From the NCBI GenBank assembly GCA_947643295.1, contig CANRVM010000039.1, positions 1 to 9,581 of the forward strand: a stretch of DNA of 9,581 nt. Reading direction: 5' to 3'. The position numbers and the translations under genes were made by a program. This DNA is from an uncultured Mycoplasmatota bacterium. GTDB taxonomy: Bacteria > Bacillota_I > Bacilli_A > RF39 > UBA660. Below, piece by piece: positions 1 through 9,581 of the stretch. How positions within the stretch are numbered: the stretch's first letter is position 1; each line of letters opens with the position of its first letter. Below the pieces are notes generated by a model. The model ran no database searches. It was not told the origin of the DNA and saw only the letters and a program-made list of their open reading frames with translations.

Positions 1-684
1 TTATCGAATGGAAAACAATTGAAGCAAAAATATTTTTTTACAGAAGGATATACTTATGCTTGGGGAATGGGATATGGCTTTACCATCGTAGTACCTGATT
101 CTATTGTAGAAAATCTTAAAATTGCAGATTCTCATCTAATTGTGGATACGAAGGAGGAGACAACAGAGGCTTTTTATGATAAACTTGCTAAGTTTTCGGA
201 TGATGATTTTTGTTATCATAATGAGAATGATCAATATATTTGTTATTCCATTGCTAATTTAATAGTACGGGGGAAAGAAAAATCTCAAAATAATGGATTT
301 GTAACAATTATTGCTTTTGTCTGTTTTTATATCGCTTTTGTGTTTACTGCTGTTGTTGGAACCATTTTAGCAATTCAACAATTAAGTGATTCTACAAGGT
401 ATAAATATCGTTATCAAGTATTAAGCAAATTAGGTGTTCGTAGAGATACTCTTCATAAGACCATATTCAAACAACTCTCCATCTTTTTTCTTTTCCCTCT
501 TCTTTATCCAACTATCATAAGTATTTGTACTTTAACATCGATGAATAGAATTTTTAAAGTATCATTAGAAAAAGATACGGTTTATTTAACTTATTTTGGT
601 ATGAATATTTTCATTTTTTTAATAATTTATTTCCTTTATTTTTTTTCTACTTACTTTGGATTTAAAAAGAATGTAGAGGAATAA
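1..684 (+). CDS. BceB-like FtsX-family ABC permease, C-terminal part (5' end outside window)
   Basis: The reading frame is open from base 1, so this is the end of a longer gene; a TTG at 19 is internal and not a believable start. The visible part begins in an extracellular domain (first ~95 residues, soluble and acidic). It continues with three hydrophobic segments that match the last three helices of the bacitracin-type permease: the first around FVTIIAFVCFYIAFVFTAVV, the second around SIFFLFPLLYPTIISI, the third near the end. The cytoplasmic stretch between the first two (AIQQLSDSTRYKYRYQVLSK then LGV) is typical of BceB/FtsX proteins. In this family the permease works with a BceA-type ATPase, presumably encoded upstream, to free cell-wall lipid intermediates from peptide antibiotics and to signal to a BceS kinase. 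The matching two-component system lies two genes downstream. Family is confident; the peptide specificity is unknown. Confidence 0.85.
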   Translation, partial: LSNGKQLKQKYFFTEGYTYAWGMGYGFTIVVPDSIVENLKIADSHLIVDTKEETTEAFYDKLAKFSDDDFCYHNENDQYICYSIANLIVRGKEKSQNNGFVTIIAFVCFYIAFVFTAVVGTILAIQQLSDSTRYKYRYQVLSKLGVRRDTLHKTIFKQLSIFFLFPLLYPTIISICTLTSMNRIFKVSLEKDTVYLTYFGMNIFIFLIIYFLYFFSTYFGFKKNVEE

Positions 685-729
685 GAAGAAAAAAATGACA
701 AATAATAAATAGTAGTAAGGAGTAGTATA

Positions 730-1299
730 ATGCAGCAAAAAAACAAAGTAAAAACTATCTTTCACATTGTAACAATTATCATGACCATATTAATTATTCT
801 TTTTATTTTTTATGGATTAAAACTAGGAATTTTTAAAGAAAAAGAGATACTTGTTTCTTATATTCAAAAGTTTGGGGTAATAGCACCAATCTTTTTCCTT
901 TTCTTACAGATGGTACAAGTAGTCTTTCCTGTGATACCAGGAGGGGCTTCTTGTCTTGCAGGAGTTCTTGCTTTTGGACCAATCCTTGGTTTTATTTATA
1001 ACTATCTTGGTCTAGTATTAGGTTCTATTGTCGCTTTTCTTTTATCTAGAAGATATGGTCTTCCTTTTGTTAAAAAATTATTCAAAGAAGAAACCATTGA
1101 GAAGTATCTAGCCTATATCAAGACAAAAAGATTTCATCAAATTTTCTTTCTAGGGATTCTATTACCAGGCCTACCAGATGATTTATTATGCTATGTAGCA
1201 GGATTATCCAATATGAGTCTAAAAAAGTTTTTTCTTTATGTTGTGGTTGGAAAACCATTTACTTTAATTTTTTATAGTATTTTTATGGAATTATTTTAG
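730..1299 (+). CDS. DedA/TVP38-TMEM64 (VTT domain) membrane protein
   Basis: 189 residues. An AAGGAG ribosome site (717-722) lies 7 bases before the ATG. There is an N-terminal membrane helix at ~10-30, then a VTT (SNARE-associated) domain at ~50-182. The domain shows both proline-rich re-entrant motifs of the family: FPVIPGG at 66-72, and LPGLPDD at 145-151 followed by a Y-x-AG-x-S segment. Between them is the glycine-rich helix pair and the basic SRRYG turn (106-110). VTT proteins of the DedA group have been shown to move undecaprenyl phosphate or other lipids across the membrane; for the TVP38/TMEM64 branch this is less settled. It sits 45 bases after a BceB-like permease and 35 bases before the response regulator, so it is probably part of the same envelope-stress locus. 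Function in C55-P recycling here is an inference from family and context. Confidence 0.85.
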   Translation: MQQKNKVKTIFHIVTIIMTILIILFIFYGLKLGIFKEKEILVSYIQKFGVIAPIFFLFLQMVQVVFPVIPGGASCLAGVLAFGPILGFIYNYLGLVLGSIVAFLLSRRYGLPFVKKLFKEETIEKYLAYIKTKRFHQIFFLGILLPGLPDDLLCYVAGLSNMSLKKFFLYVVVGKPFTLIFYSIFMELF

Positions 1300-1304
1300 A
1301 TACA

Positions 1305-1313
1305 TGGTACAAT
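1305..1313 (+). promoter_or_regulatory. candidate extended -10 promoter for the two-component system
   Basis: TG at 1305-1306, one base, then TACAAT at 1308-1313 fits an extended -10 element (TGnTATAAT, one mismatch). No convincing -35 is seen 16-18 bases upstream. It lies 22 bases before the response regulator start and would give a short leader carrying the AGGTGG ribosome site. It could let the regulator/kinase pair be expressed apart from the permease and DedA gene. Confidence 0.4.
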
Positions 1314-1334
1314 ACAAAGTAGGTGGTGTTTTTC

Positions 1335-1994
1335 ATGACAATTGCAATTATTGAAGATGAAGAAGTCATTCGAGAAGAGCTTTCGAAATTACTAGAAACT
1401 AGTGGTTATCAGACGATTAAACTAACAGACTTTGAAAAAATAGATGAAAGTATTTCTCTTTATTCTATCGACTTAATTCTCTTAGACATTAATTTACCTT
1501 ATGAAAGTGGTTTTGCGATTTGTAAAAGAATCAAAAGGAAGAGTAATATTCCAATAGTCTTTGTTACCAGTAGAAATACCCAAAAAGATGAACTAATTAG
1601 TATTCAATCTGGTGGAATTGATTTTATTACAAAACCTTATCATAAAAGTATTTTATTAGAAAAAATCAAAAGAGCACTTCAGCTGATAGATCCTAAAAAC
1701 TATAAAGAAATTACGAAAAAAGGGTACACCTTAGATCTACACTTATCTATTTTAAAATATAAAGGAAAAGAAATAGAATTAACGAGGAATGAATTTCGTA
1801 TTCTTTATTATTTCTTTTTAGAAGAGAACCGTATTATTACGAAAGAGGAGTTGTTAGAATACTTATGGAATGATAAATGTTATCTCGATGAAAATATTTT
1901 AATGGTAAATATCAATCGTCTAAGAAAAAAGGCAGAAGAAATTGGGATTACTGATTTTATAGAAACGATTCGGGGACAAGGCTATCGCTTATGA
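1335..1994 (+). CDS. OmpR/PhoB-family response regulator (BceR-like)
   Basis: 219 residues. I chose the ATG at 1335 because AGGTGG (1321-1326) lies 8 bases before it; the in-frame GTG at 1323 overlaps that ribosome site and would add only four residues. The receiver domain (1-~115) has the acidic pair E7/D8, the phosphoacceptor D51 in LLDINLP, T78 and K100 in the TKP motif. The C-terminal winged helix (~125-219) ends with the usual IRGQGYRL strand. Its stop overlaps the next start by four bases (ATGA), so regulator and kinase are translationally coupled. With the intramembrane-sensing kinase and the BceB-like permease nearby, it most likely activates the transporter genes when a cell-wall-active peptide is sensed. 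All phosphorylation residues are present, so it should be functional. Exact targets cannot be read from this window. Confidence 0.93.
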   Translation: MTIAIIEDEEVIREELSKLLETSGYQTIKLTDFEKIDESISLYSIDLILLDINLPYESGFAICKRIKRKSNIPIVFVTSRNTQKDELISIQSGGIDFITKPYHKSILLEKIKRALQLIDPKNYKEITKKGYTLDLHLSILKYKGKEIELTRNEFRILYYFFLEENRIITKEELLEYLWNDKCYLDENILMVNINRLRKKAEEIGITDFIETIRGQGYRL

Positions 1995-3001
1995 GATTTT
2001 TAACATTTCTCGAGAGTAAAATATGGTTTCTAATTTTTGTTATTTCTTTTTTAGTTTTCAATAGTATTTTACTAGGTGTTTTTCAAGTCCCTTTTCCTTT
2101 TATTATGCTTTATTGTAGTATTTTTCTTTTTTACACTTTTCTTTCTTTTGGAATTTATTTCTACCAAGAGAGAAAAAAGGTGAAAAAAATGATTCATATG
2201 GTTGATAGTTTGGAGGAAAAGTATTTGATTTCTACTATTATGAAAAGACCAAAAAATCTAGAAAACCAAGGATACTATGAAGTATTAAAGAAAACCTGTA
2301 AATCTTTTCATGATAAACTTAGTATGATAGAAGAAGAAAAAAAGGATTATCGTGAGTATATTGAAAGTTTTGTACATGAAATTAAAACTCCTATTTCTGC
2401 TTTATCTTTGATGTTTGATAATTTAGAACAGGAAGAGGCCAAAGAGGAATTAGAGAAAATTCATCATTTAGTAGAACAAATTCTTTTTTATGCAAGAAGT
2501 GAGGATATTTATCACGATTATTTTGTAAAAAAGATAAAGCTAGAGGAAGTGATTCATCAAGTACTCTTAAATTATAAGAACTATCTTTTAAAAAGAAAGA
2601 TTCAACTAGAAATAAAAGATTTAGATTACTTTGTCTATACCGATGAAAAATGGTTGATTTTCATTCTTTCACAAATCATTCAAAATTCCATTAAATATTT
2701 GGATAAAAAAAGAAAGAAAATAGAAATCAAAGCCAAAGAAGAGAAAAACAAGATAGTCCTTGAAATAATGGATAATGGGTGTGGCATTTTATCCTCTGAT
2801 ATTACTCGTGTATTGGAAAAAGGTTTTACGGGAAAAAATCGAAAAAAGGAACAAGCAACTGGTATGGGTTTATATCTTTCCAATAAATTATGTGAAAAAC
2901 TTGGATTAAAGTTACAAATAGAATCAAAAGAAAAGGAATACACTAGAGTGATTCTCATCTTTCCAAAAAGTAGTATACATAGTATCGAAGAGAAAAAATA
3001 A
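1991..3001 (+). CDS. Intramembrane-sensing histidine kinase (BceS-like)
   Basis: 336 residues. Two membrane helices (~11-30 and ~37-58) are joined by only about six outside residues (FQVPFP), so there is no extracellular sensor domain. This is the hallmark of BceS-type kinases, which read the state of the partner ABC permease. The dimerisation and phosphotransfer helix carries H129 in the FVHEIKTPIS motif. The ATPase domain has the N box (QNSIKY, N232), the G1 box DNGCGI (261-266) and the G2 box GMGLYLS (291-297). It starts inside the stop of the response regulator (four-base overlap). All catalytic boxes are present, so it looks active. The partner is inferred to be the truncated permease at the left edge, with its ATPase upstream of the window. 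Confidence 0.93.
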   Translation: MRFLTFLESKIWFLIFVISFLVFNSILLGVFQVPFPFIMLYCSIFLFYTFLSFGIYFYQERKKVKKMIHMVDSLEEKYLISTIMKRPKNLENQGYYEVLKKTCKSFHDKLSMIEEEKKDYREYIESFVHEIKTPISALSLMFDNLEQEEAKEELEKIHHLVEQILFYARSEDIYHDYFVKKIKLEEVIHQVLLNYKNYLLKRKIQLEIKDLDYFVYTDEKWLIFILSQIIQNSIKYLDKKRKKIEIKAKEEKNKIVLEIMDNGCGILSSDITRVLEKGFTGKNRKKEQATGMGLYLSNKLCEKLGLKLQIESKEKEYTRVILIFPKSSIHSIEEKK

Positions 3002-3078: not shown

Positions 3079-3813
3079 ATGAACGAAATAGCAGAAAATG
3101 ACCGATTAGAGAAAAAATGTTTTGAAATTATGAATTCTGCATCGGGGGCTTTTTACAGCTTGTGCTCAACTAGTCTTTATGTTAAAGAAGGAAAAAGAGT
3201 AAAGCAAATAAAGGAAGAAGTAGATGATTTTCTTCAATCTATTTTGAAAGACTCTTCCTTTATGAATTGGGATAATTTTTCTTATACTACCATCCTATAT
3301 ATTATTTATTATTTTGAAAAAGAGTTAACGGAGGAAACATTTTCTTTTCTTACCTCTTCTCTTATTGAAAGAAAACAACCAACCTATTTGAACTTTTCTC
3401 CTATGATTTATCTTCTTCAGACAGAAAGAGCATTGTCATCTCATACAATTAGAAGAATTTCAGAGAAAATAGAAAGGGAGGATTTAGCAAAAGAAATAGA
3501 ACCACATACACGAACACCATATGATTTTGCTTACTACTTCTTAAGAAGAGGAGAAACACCTAAGGACGTGGTAGAAAAATACTTAAAAAAGTATGATTCT
3601 CTCCCATTTTCTATATTAAAGACATCATTAGATGAATTTATGGACGATTTTAATAGTGATTTACAAAATGAACAAATCACTAATATTTCTCAAATAAAAG
3701 GAAATAAGAATTTAGAATGGGACTATCAATATTATCAAGTGATGAAAGAATATATTTCAAAAAGAAAAGACGTTAAAGAAAAGATAAAAAAACAAAAAAG
3801 GGTAGGTGGTTAG
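3079..3813 (+). CDS. Unrecognised helical cytoplasmic protein
   Basis: 244 residues with a GGGGGA ribosome site (3067-3072) six bases before the ATG. I do not recognise a family. It has no signal peptide and no clear membrane helix. It is rich in Glu, Lys, Ser and aromatic residues and looks almost wholly alpha-helical, ending in a strongly basic tail (~228-242). The middle contains a proline-bearing stretch (EIEPHTRTPYDFAYYFLRRG, ~159-178) that may be a conserved core worth searching with. The stop is followed directly, without spacing, by the ATG of the Asp-box membrane protein, whose ribosome site (GGGTAGGTGG, 3800-3809) lies inside this gene, so the two are probably co-transcribed and co-translated. 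Its own promoter candidate lies just upstream. Function is unknown; it may serve the neighbouring membrane protein or the envelope-stress system before it. Confidence 0.75.
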   Translation: MNEIAENDRLEKKCFEIMNSASGAFYSLCSTSLYVKEGKRVKQIKEEVDDFLQSILKDSSFMNWDNFSYTTILYIIYYFEKELTEETFSFLTSSLIERKQPTYLNFSPMIYLLQTERALSSHTIRRISEKIEREDLAKEIEPHTRTPYDFAYYFLRRGETPKDVVEKYLKKYDSLPFSILKTSLDEFMDDFNSDLQNEQITNISQIKGNKNLEWDYQYYQVMKEYISKRKDVKEKIKKQKRVGG

Positions 3814-4392
3814 ATGGACAAGAAAAAAATTTTTAGTCTATTTCTGATTCTTGGTATCCTTATTGTTTTTTTCTTCTTATTATTTTCTAATAATAAGAAA
3901 GAAAAAGTAGAGGAGAATTTTCTCTATTCGAGAAGATTTGGAAATCTCATTCTTACCTTTCAAAAATATGATGATGTTCTTGGACAAAATAGGATAGTAG
4001 GAGTGGAAAAAAGTACAGACAATGGGAAAAGTTATACCAAAGTAACAAAGGAGTCAATTACAGTGAGTCAAGAAGCCAGATTTTTGTTTACGAATGATAA
4101 AGTAGGTTATGTTATCTCCACTGGATATATAAGAAGAGAAAATGATTTTAAAGGATTTAAAGTAACTTTAGACGGAGGAAAAACATTTATGGATGCTAAG
4201 TTTTTCTATGAAAATGAAAATGTGGATTTGATTACGATTGAGGAATTTCCTTATCAAGATGGTAATGAATTAAGAATGAAATGTTCTGTTTATGATTTAA
4301 CAGAAGATGGAAATGGCTATGAAGAGAAGGATTTTGAGTTTAAAAGTTCTGATAAAGGGCTTACTTGGGGTTTAGAAAATGCATTCAATTAA
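3814..4392 (+). CDS. Membrane-anchored protein with three Asp-box (BNR-type) motifs
   Basis: 192 residues. A short basic start (MDKKK) is followed by one membrane helix (~6-24) without a cleavage site or lipobox, so it should be anchored with the C-terminal part outside. The outside part has three Asp-box motifs of the form S/T-x-D-x-G-x-(S/T)-(F/W/Y): STDNGKSY (67-74), TLDGGKTF (118-125) and SSDKGLTW (178-185). In known folds these mark blades of sialidase-like or photosynthesis-factor-like beta-propellers, but those usually have six or more blades; here the spacing of 51 and 60 residues allows only about three. It may therefore dimerise or form a partial propeller. No catalytic sialidase residues (RIP motif) are seen, so an enzyme role is not supported. 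It follows the previous gene without a gap and ends just before a terminator. A decayed second copy of its 3' part lies at 8299-8600. Confidence 0.8.
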   Translation: MDKKKIFSLFLILGILIVFFFLLFSNNKKEKVEENFLYSRRFGNLILTFQKYDDVLGQNRIVGVEKSTDNGKSYTKVTKESITVSQEARFLFTNDKVGYVISTGYIRRENDFKGFKVTLDGGKTFMDAKFFYENENVDLITIEEFPYQDGNELRMKCSVYDLTEDGNGYEEKDFEFKSSDKGLTWGLENAFN

Positions 4393-4431
4393 AAAGAAAA
4401 GAGCAATAGATAAAGGTTGCTCCTTATTTTT
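4391..4431. terminator. Bidirectional Rho-independent terminator
   Basis: The stem is GAGCAA (4401-4406) with TTGCTC (4417-4422), loop of ten bases. On the plus strand it is followed by CTTATTTTT, ending the Asp-box operon. Read on the minus strand, the same hairpin is followed by the complement of AAAAAGAAAA (4391-4400), a U-rich tract, ending the convergent DUF5661 gene. The stop codons of the genes on both sides lie within or against the flanking A/T tracts. The same structure recurs at 8595-8635. Confidence 0.8.
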
Positions 4432-4530
4432 GGGACTCTTGTAACTTAGATTCTAAAAATCTTTCGAATACAAGTAATCCAGAGCCTTTATTGTTGTAAT
4501 TAGAAAATTCATTTAAGAGAGCCAAAGCAA
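4424..4530 (-). pseudogene. Truncated 3' end of a DUF5661 gene
   Basis: The minus strand reads ALALLNEFSNYNNKGS then GLLVFERFLESKLQESQK and a TAA stop, matching about the last 34 residues of the intact DUF5661 gene at 8628-8900. The frame has no stop inside the homologous part, but similarity ends abruptly at 4530. Three codons further upstream in this frame there is a TGA, so the start and the conserved ELEHGT core are missing. Differences from the intact copy include P64 to S and D71-Y72 to G-S. It is a leftover from the duplication around the cassette and is unlikely to be expressed. Confidence 0.85.
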
Positions 4531-4642
4531 AAACGAGTCATTGAATTAAACTATCAAAATGAGATGTTTTAAGATTTTGTAACATAGATATTATGATTTT
4601 ATCTTAAATTATTCTTTCTATAGTACAAGGATAACAAATTAG

Positions 4643-4671
4643 TATACAAAACGTCAACAATGTGATATTAT
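4643..4671 (+). promoter_or_regulatory. weak sigma-A promoter candidate for the cassette
   Basis: TATACA (4643-4648, four of six) with a 17-base spacer to TATTAT (4666-4671, five of six). The leader would be about 113 bases and would include the left inverted-repeat arm. In DNA this AT-rich such matches arise easily. An alternative -10, TATGAT at 4742-4747, has no good -35. Confidence 0.25.
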
Positions 4672-4754
4672 TTAATAAAAAATAGCCGTTAACTTCCTTA
4701 ACTATACATTTCAAAGAATTATGAAACAGTATTCGACAAATTATGATAATTATA

Positions 4755-4776
4755 AAGTGCAAGTAGGGTAATTATT
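4755..4776 (+). repeat. Left arm of an inverted repeat flanking the secreted-protein gene
   Basis: TGCAAGTAGGGTAATTATT (4758-4776) is the near reverse complement of 5206-5226. In RNA the arms would pair as 7 bp (UGCAAGU/ACUUGCA), a small 1x3 internal loop, 3 bp (GGG/CCC) and 8 bp (UAAUUAUU/AAUAAUUA); three further weak pairs at the outer end reach 4755. The arm abuts the AAAGGAGGT ribosome site (4777-4785). Confidence 0.75.
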
Positions 4777-4790
4777 AAAGGAGGTATGAT

Positions 4791-5195
4791 ATGAAATACG
4801 TAAGAATAACATCTTTATTATTTCTTCTAACATTCTTTTTTGCACTAAGTTCAGCATCTGCACAAGTCGTAGGAATCGTAGATTTAACAATAAAGATAAG
4901 AAGTCAAACTAGCTCAACTAATAATCATAACAAAGATAACTATAGTAATCAGTTTGCAGTAAAAACTACTTGTACGGATGATGTAAGTGGTAACGAAATG
5001 GCAATTGAGGCACGAACTTATCGTGTGAATAATGGTACAACATCTAGTTGGAAAAGTCTGCCAAAGGGAACTTCTATTCAATTAACAGAAACCAATGGAA
5101 ACAACACAGTACCATCAACTTATCGTTTGAATCTTAGAGCGAAAAACTCTTTTATTACTACTGGTAGTTTCTATGGTTCTTGGAATTTAGATTAA
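4791..5195 (+). CDS. Small secreted protein, possible bacteriocin-like or ABC-partner peptide
   Basis: 134 residues with a strong AAAGGAGGT ribosome site (4777-4785), the best in the cassette. It has a clear Sec signal peptide: basic start, hydrophobic core (~8-19) and a SASA|Q cleavage site after residue 24. The mature 110 residues are rich in Ser, Thr and Asn, with one Cys (61), no LPxTG, no lipobox and no double-Gly leader. Alternating polar/hydrophobic runs suggest beta-strands, and it ends with GSFYGSWNLD. The pattern (secreted, beta-rich, aromatic C-terminus, followed by permeases and an ATPase) recalls lactococcin-972-like and DUF2712-like loci, but I see no decisive match to either. 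It is flanked by a long inverted repeat, unlike the other cassette genes. It may be a toxin handled by the transporter, or a secreted partner of it; a toxin role is an inference from context only. Confidence 0.8.
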   Translation: MKYVRITSLLFLLTFFFALSSASAQVVGIVDLTIKIRSQTSSTNNHNKDNYSNQFAVKTTCTDDVSGNEMAIEARTYRVNNGTTSSWKSLPKGTSIQLTETNGNNTVPSTYRLNLRAKNSFITTGSFYGSWNLD

Positions 5196-5205
5196 TAAAA
5201 ACTGA

Positions 5206-5229
5206 AATAATTACCCCAAACTTGCATTT
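5206..5229 (-). repeat. Right arm of the inverted repeat flanking the secreted-protein gene
   Basis: AATAATTACCCCAAACTTGC (5206-5225) and the next bases are the reverse complement of the left arm at 4755-4776, apart from a 1-versus-3 base internal difference. It lies 10 bases after the stop of the secreted-protein gene and before the ribosome site of the first permease gene. No U-tract follows, so it is not a simple terminator by itself. Confidence 0.75.
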
Positions 5230-5259
5230 ATCAGACAAATAAGAAAGGACTATTACCTT

Positions 5260-6183
5260 ATGGAAAAATGGAAAAGATATATTAAAAAAAACAATCTGAT
5301 AATATTAGCTATTTTTATTTCTATATTTATTGTATTAATTTCTTTTTATCAATATTATAGAGATTATTACTCATATGGTCCCTATTACAATGAAATAAAG
5401 GAAAAATGTGAAAAAACCAAAGATGAACTTATCTGCAAAGAGTTTAGCACCTTTGAATCTCCTAAAGAAAAATTAAAAAAATTAGATGCACTTACGTTGA
5501 CGTATGAAATAGTAGCACACCATGAATTTCAAAACTTTCCATTAATAGAACCTCTAATTATTATCATTCTAACAATTAATAATATACATTCTGAATTTAG
5601 CAGTGGTATGATTAAAAATTATTTAACAAGAATTCATTATAAAGATTATCTCAAAAAAATATTGAAAAAAAGTTTAAAACCAGCTTTATTCCTACCATTT
5701 TTATTTCTTTTGACATTTATACTTTCTTGTTTGATTACAAAGTTTAATTTCAATATGGATGCAGAAGTAAAAGGAATTGCGGTATATGAACCTTTCAAAT
5801 ATGATCACTTTTTATTATATGGATTTGTCTTGTGTATTATCCACTTCTTTTTAGGGATATTCTATGGAAATATAGGAATTCTCTTTTGTAAAAAAAGCAA
5901 ATCAAAATTTATCACCATTCTTTATGCCTATATCACTTATTTTATCTTTGTTATTATCTTATATGCAGGAGTTTATGCACTAATTATTAATAAAATATTA
6001 GGAATATCTATACCTCATGAATATTTTAATCTACTTGCATATTGGAATTTAGATAGCAATAACCATTTAATCATTCCTTGTTTCTTTTCTTTTCTATTTT
6101 GTATCTCTTCTTATATCATTTTATGGAAAAGTTATCAAAGGAAAGAAAGGGTCTTGATTGAAAATGAAAGAGAAATTTCGTAA
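5260..6183 (+). CDS. ABC-2-type permease, first of two in the cassette
   Basis: 307 residues. A GAAAGGA site (5243-5249) lies 10 bases before the ATG. Membrane segments, by eye: ~13-33, ~92-107, ~141-162, ~184-207, ~215-244 and ~270-291, six in all. An extracellular region of about 60 residues follows the first and contains two Cys (CEKTKDELIC) that could form a disulfide. After the second segment comes NNIHSEFSSGMIKNYLTRIH, the E-F-x-x-G-x-I-x-N pattern of ABC-2 permeases that couples to the ATPase. It overlaps the next gene by 26 bases, so the two permeases are translationally coupled and probably form one transporter with the ATPase downstream. Role as an immunity or export permease for the secreted protein is inferred from context. 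Confidence 0.85.
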   Translation: MEKWKRYIKKNNLIILAIFISIFIVLISFYQYYRDYYSYGPYYNEIKEKCEKTKDELICKEFSTFESPKEKLKKLDALTLTYEIVAHHEFQNFPLIEPLIIIILTINNIHSEFSSGMIKNYLTRIHYKDYLKKILKKSLKPALFLPFLFLLTFILSCLITKFNFNMDAEVKGIAVYEPFKYDHFLLYGFVLCIIHFFLGIFYGNIGILFCKKSKSKFITILYAYITYFIFVIILYAGVYALIINKILGISIPHEYFNLLAYWNLDSNNHLIIPCFFSFLFCISSYIILWKSYQRKERVLIENEREIS

Positions 6184-7609
6184 GAAAAATACTACTATAG
6201 AGATTTTAAAATTTATCACAAAGACAAAAAAGTTTAAAGCTACTATCCTTTTCTCTATTCTTTTAAGTTTATATGGAAGTCTTGTTTTAACAGCAGGCAT
6301 TCAAAATTATTTTTCAGCAATATTAAATACCTTTCAATTTGCAACGTTCAATAGCTTATTCTTTTTAGTAATTTTAATGAATACCGTGAATGTTTGTTCT
6401 ACTTTTAATCAATATGATTCTTACCTTATAAGACTAGAGAACAAAAAGAAACATTTAAAAGAATTAATAAAATTAGTAGTTTATAGCAATTTAATAGTTA
6501 GTCTAGTTATCTTACTTTCTTATTTAAGTGTTGTAAATATTTTAAAATGTGGCTATTTCTATATGAAAAGCTATAATGGATATATAAATAATATGGTCTA
6601 TACCATCTTTTATCTACTAAGATATATCGTACTTATTCTTTTCGTTAGCATCTTTAATGTCTTTTTGTGTTATAAACTAAGAGAAGAAAAGGTCATTGTA
6701 CTCGATTTTATCTTTGTTTTTGCCTTTTGGATATATCCATCAGGAATCATGGAGACTACCAATACTTTTCAGTTACCAATCTGGCGATATTTTGAAAATA
6801 TTAATTATGAAAATTTTATGCTTGAGGTTAGCTACTCTCTATTATATATACTTTTGTTGGAAGTACTTGTTATTTTTGTCTATCACTTTATAAATATTAA
6901 AGAAAAAATATTTATGAAATATATTGCCATAAGCGATATAAAATATATGATAAAGAAAAATTATAAATACATACTCACATTAATTATTATTCCTGCCTTC
7001 TCTTTATACTTTATTATTTCTAACTATGATATTAGTAGTGAGGAGATGCTGATTACCAGCATGGGATTAAGGATAGATAGCTATTTTCCTATTGATATCA
7101 TGATGTTTATTATTAACATTATCATTCACATCTATTTGGTAATCTCTTTTTACATCAATGATTTAATTAGAAACAAAGATAATTTATTTTTAAGGATTTC
7201 TACTACAAAATGGTGTTTTAATAAACAAATAGTGCTTATTTTCTTACTAACTATGATAAAGATAAGTCAGTATATCCTATTAATTTTAATGATATGTTTA
7301 AAAACTAATTCTAATTTCGATTTCAAAAGTATTATCAATTTATTAATATCCGACATCTTATTTACAAATGTGGTACAACTAGTTAGTCTATGGATTTTGT
7401 TTAACTGTAAAGAGGGTAATTTTATCAGAAAAAGAATGATTCTTTGCTTTATCATAATTTTTATTATTTTGATGCCAAAAAACATTATTTGGTATCGTCA
7501 TTATCTTTATGGATTACTAATTCTTACCATAATTTTAATGATACAACTGATAAAAAATATTAAATTAAAAAGAAGAAATGTTACGGAAATGCTAGGAGGT
7601 AAATTATGA
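6158..7609 (+). CDS. Large two-half membrane permease, second of two in the cassette
   Basis: 483 residues and very hydrophobic, with about 12 membrane segments. I chose the TTG at 6158 because an AAAGG ribosome site ends seven bases before it; the ATG at 6164 would shorten the product by two residues but has a 13-base gap. The protein appears to be two six-helix halves. In each, the second helix is followed by a basic loop (YLIRLENKKKHLKELIK, ~89-105, and DLIRNKDNLFLRISTTKWC near 328-346), the probable contact to the ATPase. It resembles the fused permeases of bacteriocin-associated ABC systems in layout, but I cannot name a family. The start overlaps the first permease and the stop overlaps the ATPase start by four bases. 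A full transporter with the 307-residue permease plus this 12-helix protein would be unusually large; alternatively one of them is an accessory protein. Confidence 0.8.
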   Translation: MKMKEKFRKKNTTIEILKFITKTKKFKATILFSILLSLYGSLVLTAGIQNYFSAILNTFQFATFNSLFFLVILMNTVNVCSTFNQYDSYLIRLENKKKHLKELIKLVVYSNLIVSLVILLSYLSVVNILKCGYFYMKSYNGYINNMVYTIFYLLRYIVLILFVSIFNVFLCYKLREEKVIVLDFIFVFAFWIYPSGIMETTNTFQLPIWRYFENINYENFMLEVSYSLLYILLLEVLVIFVYHFINIKEKIFMKYIAISDIKYMIKKNYKYILTLIIIPAFSLYFIISNYDISSEEMLITSMGLRIDSYFPIDIMMFIINIIIHIYLVISFYINDLIRNKDNLFLRISTTKWCFNKQIVLIFLLTMIKISQYILLILMICLKTNSNFDFKSIINLLISDILFTNVVQLVSLWILFNCKEGNFIRKRMILCFIIIFIILMPKNIIWYRHYLYGLLILTIILMIQLIKNIKLKRRNVTEMLGGKL

Positions 7610-8250
7610 AAATAGAAGTAAAAAATGTATCAAAAAAATTTAGAGAAGTAGAAATATTGAGAAAAGTAAACTTAACTTTTGAAAGTGGAAATATTTATGG
7701 AATAATTGGAGTAAATGGTTCTGGGAAAACCATATTATTAAAAATGTTATGTGCATTTTTGGAACCAACAGGAGGGCAAATATTATTTGATGGAGTGGAT
7801 ATTATTAAAGATAATTTATTTCCACCAAGTACTCGAGCCTTAATAGAAAACCCTAGTTTTTTGCCAGATTTAACAGGAAAAGAAAATCTCAGTCTTCTAG
7901 CTTCTTTACAATCTAAAATTGGGGAAGACGAGATTGATAAGTCATTACAAAACGTAGGGCTTGAAAAAGAAGCAAATAAGCTATATCATAAGTATTCTTT
8001 AGGTATGAAACAAAAGTTGGGAATTGCTCAAGTCCTTATGGAAGATCCTGAGGTCCTTATTTTTGATGAGCCGTTTAATGGAGTAGATGATAATAGTATC
8101 AAAAATATTAGAAAATTATTACAAAAAGAGAAGAAAAATGGAAAAATAATTATTATAGCTACGCATATTAAAGAAGATATTCATAAATTATGTGACGAAA
8201 CTTATCAGATTGAGGATGGCATCCTAAAAAAACTTTCTAAAAATAAATAG
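7606..8250 (+). CDS. ABC transporter ATPase, BcrA/LanF-like with E-loop
   Basis: 214 residues. The AGGAGGT site (7594-7600) and the four-base overlap with the previous stop fix the start. The domain is complete: Walker A GVNGSGKT (35-42), signature SLGMKQ (131-136, as usual in this subfamily in place of LSGGQ), Walker B VLIFDEP (150-156), D-loop NGVD (158-161) and switch H187. The Q-loop glutamine is replaced by glutamate in ALIENPSFLPDLTGKENL (E81). An E-loop like this is known from LanF-type lantibiotic immunity ATPases and is also seen in BcrA-like bacitracin transporters. The short length, with no C-terminal extension, also fits. It should drive the two permeases encoded before it. The E-loop and the gene order favour self-protection against, or handling of, a secreted peptide. 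Confidence 0.95.
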   Translation: MKIEVKNVSKKFREVEILRKVNLTFESGNIYGIIGVNGSGKTILLKMLCAFLEPTGGQILFDGVDIIKDNLFPPSTRALIENPSFLPDLTGKENLSLLASLQSKIGEDEIDKSLQNVGLEKEANKLYHKYSLGMKQKLGIAQVLMEDPEVLIFDEPFNGVDDNSIKNIRKLLQKEKKNGKIIIIATHIKEDIHKLCDETYQIEDGILKKLSKNK

Positions 8251-8298: not shown

Positions 8299-8600
8299 AA
8301 GGAGTCTGTTCGTGATTTTTCTTTGAGAATGGAAGAAGTGGATGAGAATATCATTCTTACCTTTCAAAAATATGATGATGTTCTGGGACAAAATAGGATA
8401 GTAGGAGTAGAAAAAAGTACAGACAAAATGTGAATTTGATTACCCTAGAGGAATTCCTTTATCAAGATGGTAATGAATTAGAAATGAAATGCTCTATTTA
8501 TAATAGGAAAGAGGATGGAAATGGCTATGAAGAGAGAAAGTTCAAGTTTATAAGTTCTGATAAAGGGCTTACTTGGGCATTAGAAAATGTAGTTAATAAA
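8299..8600 (+). pseudogene. Decayed second copy of the Asp-box protein gene
   Basis: From 8351 to 8424 it matches 3947-4020 with two differences (protein ILTFQKYDDVLGQNRIVGVE). A weaker in-frame match (KESV..., EVDEN) may reach back to about 8299 behind a TAG stop. After 8424 the counterpart of 4021-4216 (196 bases) is missing; 196 is not a multiple of three, so the frame shifts and meets TGA at 8431-8433. The 3' part (8425-8600) still encodes the third Asp box (SSDKGLTW) in another frame, at about 84% DNA identity, and its old stop codon has been lost. The membrane anchor is absent. The open frame from GTG 8430 to 8648 is only the remnant of this 3' part running through the terminator; it has no ribosome site and is not called as a gene. 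Confidence 0.9.
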
Positions 8601-8734
8601 AAAAGAGCAATAGATAAAGGTTGCTCCTTATTTTTGGGACTCTTGTAACTTAGATTCTAAAAATCTTTCGAATACAAGTAATCCATAGTCTTTATTGTAG
8701 TAATTAGGAAACTCATTTAAGTGAGCCAAAGCAA
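8351..8734. repeat. Right copy of the duplicated chromosomal segment
   Basis: Direct-orientation partner of 3947-4530, lacking the counterpart of 4021-4216. The offset is 4404 bases before the deletion, 4208 after it, and 4204 from the terminator onward. Similarity stops at 8734, inside the intact DUF5661 gene, which continues to 8900. Confidence 0.95.
8595..8635. terminator. Bidirectional Rho-independent terminator (second copy)
   Basis: The stem is GAGCAA (8605-8610) with TTGCTC (8621-8626), ten-base loop, with CTTATTTTT after it on the plus strand and, on the minus strand, a U-rich tract from the A-run at 8598-8604. On the minus side it ends the DUF5661 gene, whose TAA stop (8628-8630) lies inside the T-tract next to the hairpin. 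On the plus side it may stop transcription of the cassette operon. Hairpin and loop are identical to the copy at 4391-4431. Confidence 0.8.
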
Positions 8735-9505: not shown

Positions 9506-9581
9506 GGCCTGTTGGTGAAGAGGCTCAACACACTGCCCTCTCAAGGCAGCATTCACGGATTCGAATTCCGTACAGGCTACC
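9506..9581 (+). tRNA. tRNA-Glu (anticodon CUC)
   Basis: The cloverleaf is complete. Acceptor is GGCCTGT with ACAGGCT (first pair G-U), D arm GTG/CAC, anticodon stem CTGCC/GGCAG with loop CTCTCAA (T33, anticodon CTC, A37), and T arm ACGGA/TCCGT around TTCGAAT. Discriminator A is followed by CC; the final A of an encoded CCA would be the first base outside the window. The sequence follows the layout of Bacillota tRNA-Glu closely. It is probably the first of a tRNA cluster or followed by an intergenic region beyond the edge. Confidence 0.93.

Follow-up and report, generated by a model that had tools for sequence, protein, structure and literature searches.

Within a 9,581-nucleotide (nt) stretch of DNA from an uncultured Mycoplasmatota bacterium (contig CANRVM010000039.1; the window), four plus-strand genes at positions 4791-8250 encode a protein with a Sec signal peptide, an ATP-binding cassette (ABC) permease (permease A), a double permease and an E-loop ABC ATPase. 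Since other genomes carry the same gene set, the cassette is more than a chance assembly; it is a real, recurrent system with bacteriocin-ABC-like logic that falls into none of the named families tested. We give about half of our confidence to reading it as a bacteriocin-immunity cassette, with a Sec-secreted bacteriocin, a LanFEG-like ABC immunity transporter and an mRNA that folds back on the leader of the toxin gene. This reading draws on the linkage of the secreted gene to the transporter, the asymmetry by which the transporter also occurs alone, the acidic Q-loop residue of the ATPase, relatives on small plasmids and the foldback. The initial annotation of this DNA had proposed a candidate for an undescribed bacteriocin; a recurrent system outside the named families is indeed present, but a look-alike with the same layout, the DUF2712/DUF2705 cassettes, exists.

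The first gene (4791-5195, +) encodes a protein of 134 amino acids (aa), from which removal of the signal peptide (MKYVRITSLLFLLTFFFALSSASA, assigned by eye) would leave the 110-aa mature part given in the initial annotation, with one Cys. The AlphaFold prediction for this protein is a beta-sandwich. A profile search placed it above the cut-off of no Pfam family, and NCBIfam gave nothing at an expectation value (E) up to 1. The sole Pfam row was DUF5979 (21.7 bits, cut-off 25), a match not found in 12 scanned relatives, and we saw no clear similarity to a known non-toxin family, which had been named beforehand as the result that would speak against a bacteriocin. A first protein search returned the protein itself and three relatives among 14 candidates, and a profile built from 11 relatives picked out 35 of 1402 candidates (E up to 0.01), four of which the first search had already found. 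Among those of the 35 with a named source are Priestia, Listeria and Robertmurraya proteins annotated as hypothetical, one also as DUF4430. Alignment A9 (34 rows) combines 31 of the 35 proteins (without P0003, P0017, P0026 and P0034) with three loci. A PCxxC motif occurs in 17 of 54 cassette secreted proteins (e.g. L109, L110, L111, L119, L127, L128, L130 and L135), and may mark a subgroup with a disulfide or metal site.

Permease A (5260-6183, +; 307 aa) is of the ABC-2 type, with a match to PF12679 under the cut-off (E 0.0061; 16.3 bits, cut-off 27.2). It had been described as a six-helix protein; a hydropathy cut gives five helices, and the sixth, near residues 95-115, was placed by eye only. 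The following gene (6164-7609, +; 481 aa from the best start, ATG 6164) matches nothing in Pfam or NCBIfam at E up to 1. Its 12 hydrophobic segments agree with its description as a 12-helix, two-half permease, but it is actually a fusion of genes that are usually separate, because its two halves (permeases B and C) align with the second and third permeases of three related loci, L001, L002 and L003. Such B-C fusions are also found in L067, L075 and L076. Two near-identical cassettes differ in this respect, with B and C fused in L076 (G643; 462 aa) and separate in L077 (G552; 238 and 228 aa). The ATPase (7606-8250, +; 214 aa; PF00005, E 9.2e-30) carries the motifs GVNGSGKT, YSLGMKQ and VLIFDEP and an IEN E-loop, in which Glu replaces the Q-loop Gln, as the initial annotation had recognised. 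An acidic residue stands at this position in 28 of 28 cassette ATPases (24 E, 4 D), namely those of the window, L002 and 26 places in the order set, which comprises 288 genomes of one related order (that of G001). The best NCBIfam match of the window ATPase is TIGR03740 (galliderm_ABC), whose 179 bits lie under the cut-off of 310; TIGR03608 ranks lower (114.5 bits, cut-off 254.85). The last three genes overlap, as reported earlier, by 20 nt and 4 nt.

Scanning genome contigs with permease A yielded the three loci L001-L003 (L001 from uncultured Bacilli, L003 from uncultured Tenericutes), each with a signal-peptide protein of ~123-130 aa upstream of the permease and two more permeases and an ATPase downstream. 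When the order set was searched with the A9 profile, 35 places in 32 of the 288 genomes were found, and the neighbourhoods of all 35 were inspected. Permeases and an ATPase lie beside the secreted gene at 28 places, including L066 and L067, where the ATPase is in two pieces. At two further places only the permease was found (L064, whose contig ends after the permease, and L065, with no ATPase), and in both the secreted gene has an internal stop. L085 ends 336 nt downstream of the secreted gene and was excluded from the linkage count. The remaining four (L089-L092) have no cassette; they encode proteins of 173-386 aa with partial profile matches (E 4.6e-5 to 5.8e-4) and were judged, on these grounds, to be unrelated to the family. 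This judgement is not independent, because the cassette-bearing L093 matches as weakly (E 9e-4), and counted without it the permease is present at 30 of 34 testable secreted-gene places. Secreted genes unlinked from the transporter in other genomes would have spoken against the system, and the neighbourhood search instead places the gene beside the transporter elsewhere. Gene order varies, the ATPase following permease A in L078 and L084 and preceding the secreted gene in L083; within the order set, secreted gene and permease were seen on the same strand.

Relatives of the cassette also occur on plasmids, among them small ones of the Bacillus type. One relative of the secreted protein, P0032, matches five plasmid records, all with a permease and an ATPase gene nearby. 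Priestia pHJT3_2 (9971 bp) carries a cassette relative whose second permease stretch runs to the end of the record and is partly read, Planococcus pPS15-2 (9775 bp) carries one whose ATPase is annotated in pieces, and the other three records are larger Priestia plasmids. On pPS15-2 and these three, secreted gene and permease are divergently oriented. Similarity to the ATPase is by itself unspecific, as 1462 plasmid records match the window ATPase; the window's own subfamily gave no match in the phage, viral or plasmid collections. Compared with a Carnobacterium plasmid protein (L031), the secreted-protein profile scored 22.3 over 93 columns (shuffles at most 14.5), and with a Niallia protein (L027) it scored a weak 16.4 over 21 columns (shuffles at most 12.4). 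The L027 locus, a cassette variant on a Niallia megaplasmid with no annotation listed at this place, has an extra 377-aa protein after the secreted protein and ahead of the permeases; by eye, this is a lipoprotein. On an Eubacterium eligens plasmid (L024), a related ATPase and permeases lie within an agr-like locus with an autoinducer peptide, an AgrB-family protein, a LytTR regulator and a kinase.

The secreted gene of the window is flanked by complementary stretches, a 5' arm directly before its ribosome-binding site (RBS; 4744-4776, +) and a 3' arm between its stop and the start of permease A (5206-5233, +). In the minimum-energy fold of 4741-5262 these arms form 25 pairs, with the core GGGTAATTATT/AATAATTACCC, and the ensemble gives 27.4 expected flank-to-flank pairs, compared with 1.8 when one random other 3' flank is substituted. 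The window's ungapped helix score of 25.0 is middling, below the 95th percentile of swapped pairs (26.5), while by ensemble pairing it ranks among the best loci. In a duplex test of 46 loci, 23 were at or below 0.01 of shuffles (window, 0.005). The ungapped test used 51 loci, which remained when five near-duplicates were removed from 56: the window, L002, 28 places of the order set from the secreted-protein search, and the 26 places with an intact signal-peptide protein from the permease A search described below. The median score was 27 for cognate and 18 for swapped flanks (nominal p 5e-21, the swapped pairs being non-independent), and 17 of the 51 loci scored higher than 99% of the 2550 swapped pairs. 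Applied to permease A (28 loci) and to the ATPase (26 loci), this test showed no effect. Whole-transcript ensembles gave at least 8 expected flank pairs in 42 of the 51 loci, compared with 21 when one random other 3' flank was used. As most loci differ in arm sequence, it is the complementarity that is conserved. Purines make up more than half of the 5' arm in 33 of 34 loci (on average 0.67, against a background of 0.58). In 26 of 37 loci a -10-like box ends 0-14 nt before this arm; the corresponding counts are 15 and 16 for the two adjoining 15-nt stretches farther upstream and 8 for the one immediately downstream. Within the helices G-U outnumbers A-C by 18 to 3 (p 0.04 against base composition), and in a stricter set by 9 to 1 (p 0.10).

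We favour RNA over DNA as the level at which the flanks pair. It is possible, though rather unlikely, that they are instead a DNA-level feature, such as sites of inversion or module exchange or regulator-binding sites. Such a feature would account for the weakness of the G-U excess and for the secreted gene lying opposite to the permease on three Priestia plasmids and one Planococcus plasmid, but three of those four plasmids (L030 left out) have no such flanks, the secreted gene keeps to the permease strand in the order set, and the position of the -10-like boxes just before the 5' arm also counts against it.

The transporter was also followed independently of the secreted gene. Of the 288 genomes, 75 contain matches to a permease A profile (A10, 25 rows), at 97 places in all; 30 were already known, 60 were newly inspected, two lay within inspected stretches and five weak ones were left out. 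The ATPase was near permease A at all 60 newly inspected places. An intact upstream gene for a signal-peptide protein was present at 26 of the 60, 14 of which also match the secreted-family profile, the other 12 (L112, L113, L118, L119, L121, L125, L131, L132, L138, L140, L147 and L161) being accepted by signal peptide, size and position. Small upstream open reading frames (ORFs) in L105, L122 and L137 were set aside as what we take to be recognisable housekeeping proteins. No intact secreted gene was seen at 29 of the 60, although a wider profile picked up remnants in four (L106, L124, L126 and L134). Five places had too little upstream DNA. At the 85 permease A places that are testable, the secreted gene is present in 56 cases (broken in two) and represented by remnants in 4; the other 25 show only the transporter. 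On an ATPase tree from a quick search (94 rows, about half of the inner branches weak), the with/without label, set on 83 rows, requires at least 18 changes, 7 of them forced by well-supported branches.

A transporter that repeatedly occurs without its secreted gene resembles orphan immunity, if the analogy holds. In pneumococcal genomes, scbBC is reported without scbA in 157 of 571 (PMC11796350). Even at the scb locus, orphan immunity is not secure, because the scbBC-only strains described there are reported to be inhibited by streptococcin B and immunity by the B and C genes is said in the same source to be unverified in any lactococcin 972 locus (PMC11796350).

The same asymmetry could be explained if the transporter exports or expels another compound (a lipid, a drug or a host peptide) and the secreted protein plays an accessory part, as binding partner or decoy, and can be lost with the pump still working. 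Transporters alone at 25 of 85 places are what such a system would leave, the response regulator and sensor kinase upstream in the window would suit it, and the secreted protein has jelly-roll fold matches. Jelly-roll folds often bind sugars or lipids. We nevertheless consider this explanation unlikely, since the permease stands beside the secreted gene at 30 of 30 places judged genuine and testable (30 of 34 unjudged) and carriage on small plasmids fits a killer-immunity pair better. Quite improbable is a surface or signalling protein that needs an ABC transporter for release from the membrane and kills nothing; ABC systems extracting membrane-bound cargo exist and the strong linkage would fit one, but no lipobox or anchor motif was seen by eye in the window protein and a repeated transporter without its cargo would be unexpected.

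Under the bacteriocin-immunity reading, the 134-aa protein would leave by the Sec route and its 110-aa beta-sandwich would act on related cells at their envelope. The E-loop ATPase, working with permeases A, B and C, would expel the protein from the producer's membrane in the manner of LanFEG, as the ATPase type and the linkage suggest; B and C may form the channel, with A as the specificity subunit. The leader of the secreted gene probably pairs in the mRNA with the segment past its stop, to judge from the computed complementarity, and this foldback may restrain toxin translation relative to that of the transporter or provide a duplex for processing.

Several observations weigh against this reading. 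No member of the secreted family has a known activity, and the fold matches of the protein are generic and name no target. Mean pairwise identity is 21% for the secreted protein, 25% for permease A and 56% for the ATPase; in variability the secreted protein thus barely exceeds permease A, with no special sign of an arms race. An arms race was also not borne out by close pairs, which were inconsistent (secreted protein versus permease A, 82.7 versus 93.8% and 91.9 versus 85.0%). The asymmetry itself relies on signal peptide, size and position for the 12 secreted genes listed above, divergence could hide a secreted gene at the transporter-only places, and the with/without label is clustered on the tree (19 changes in the with-secreted group, shuffled mean 30.6). 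The comparison with scb is tempered by the inhibition of scbBC-only strains and by the status of B and C immunity given above. For the foldback, the G-U excess pointing to RNA is weak once base composition is allowed for, and seven of eight plasmid relatives are without it, with only L031 coming near (quantile 0.988).

More tentatively, the secreted proteins may be jelly-roll bacteriocins that leave by the Sec route and form a large family, as yet without a name, among uncultured Bacilli and their kin. Each would have a dedicated ABC immunity pump and a long-range, locus-specific foldback in the toxin mRNA that holds toxin translation down relative to immunity, an immunity-first RNA switch with arms co-varying between lineages. 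If the bacteriocin-immunity reading is right, about a quarter of the sampled order genomes (75 of 288) have the transporter and many would encode a candidate protein antibiotic that Pfam does not name, an RNA foldback would link toxin and immunity expression within one operon, and a testable role would be suggested for the look-alike yybN operon of Bacillus subtilis.

The cassette sits between two imperfect copies of one stretch, an arrangement absent from the initial annotation. The left copy (3943-4530) contains the 3' part of a BNR-like gene, a terminator-like hairpin and the end of a minus-strand gene; the right copy (8347-8734) is 96% and 88% identical in two blocks and is without the part matching ~4023-4216. 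A duplication or single-crossover insertion would leave such an arrangement. Relatives of the BNR-like gene were found in 14 of 223 genomes; in six of these neighbourhoods no other window protein was matched at E up to 1e-3, and none of the six showed an empty insertion site. Within positions 1-3001 of the window lie the end of a membrane protein, which we take to be of the FtsX/BceB type, and genes for a VTT-domain protein, an OmpR-type response regulator and a sensor kinase; together we take them to be a Bce-like layout next to the cassette. Pfam, NCBIfam and PADLOC placed the 244-aa protein at 3079-3813 in none of their families above cut-off, and positions 9506-9581 encode tRNA-Glu (CTC).

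Among known systems, the lactococcin 972 family (Lcn972, streptococcin B) likewise pairs a secreted unmodified protein with putative ABC immunity genes, and its plasmid pBL1 is given as 11 kbp (PMC4055356). As a lactococcin 972 the window's secreted protein was rejected, with no PF09683 match at E up to 1 and a profile score of 9.0 (shuffles up to 10.7), and the cassette ATPase, unlike that of this family, is nearer TIGR03740 than TIGR03608. Lactococcin-972-type genes were seen in 5 of 120 genomes of a wider class (L095, L096), and L095 also holds a partial ATPase with a cassette-like YSLGMNQK motif. LanFEG transporters share the E-loop ATPase and ABC-2 permeases and are described as conferring immunity by releasing peptide into the medium (PMC7038271). 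The cassette differs from them in having two or three permease units (the window with a fusion) and an ATPase below the TIGR03740 cut-off, and no lanthionine-forming enzyme or lanthipeptide precursor is found among the 10 window ORFs scanned. Our profile and ORF scans thus agree with the poor fit to lactococcin-972 and lantibiotic loci stated at the outset.

The closest layout is that of cassettes with DUF2712, DUF2705 (or hypothetical), WxPxxD, DUF2705 and ATPase genes, carried by two Priestia plasmids among the best 20 of the 1462 ATPase matches and also by G178. They have the same order, a Sec-signal protein followed by three permease units and a short E-loop ATPase (E-loop by eye). The window's secreted protein, however, has no PF10916 (DUF2712) match, nor do any of the three genomes of L001-L003. 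As a DUF2712 homologue it was rejected (mature-part profile score 11.5, shuffle maximum 13.7); an alignment that included the signal peptides joined 27 C-terminal columns at a probability of 36.5. The permease A profile scored 35.8 against the first permease of the DUF2712 group and 13.5 and 12.9 against the other two (DUF2705 hhalign probability 46.9, best of three positions), and 55.2 against the first permease of the plasmid group (others there at most 20.7), although it matches permease B inside the cassette about as well (43.1, 57.5). Permeases B and C gave no clear position match in the profile comparison with the look-alike permeases, and the shared layout is therefore supported by the first permease only. 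As far as sequence goes, the secreted proteins of the look-alike groups and of the cassette cannot be joined securely. No clear foldback was seen in the two DUF2712 cassettes examined. In the DUF2712 gene of G178 (L013), the open frame has no start and the signal peptide lies in a separate short upstream frame, so this gene may be broken. Within a limited library and set of terms, we found no paper on DUF2712 or DUF2705 and nothing relevant on such bacteriocins. PF10916 also matches B. subtilis among the control genomes, in a gene that we take to be yybN, its operon presumably being a member of these look-alikes. In this species sboA-alb, sunA and sdpABC are peptide-antibiotic genes. The yybN operon is tabled with them as a direct target of the repressor Rok (PMC2978689), which is a further ground for the bacteriocin reading; it is called of unknown function in one source (PMC11841835).

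For the foldback, the nearest parallels are hok mRNA, which folds back on itself, and icaR of Staphylococcus aureus. In icaR, a segment past the ORF is described as pairing with the RBS region, hindering translation and yielding an RNase III substrate (PMC3868564). As in these RNAs, the stretch downstream of the secreted ORF is complementary to its leader and RBS region; in contrast to them, the 3' arm here lies inside an operon, ahead of the next gene, and the complementarity recurs with differing sequences in many loci.

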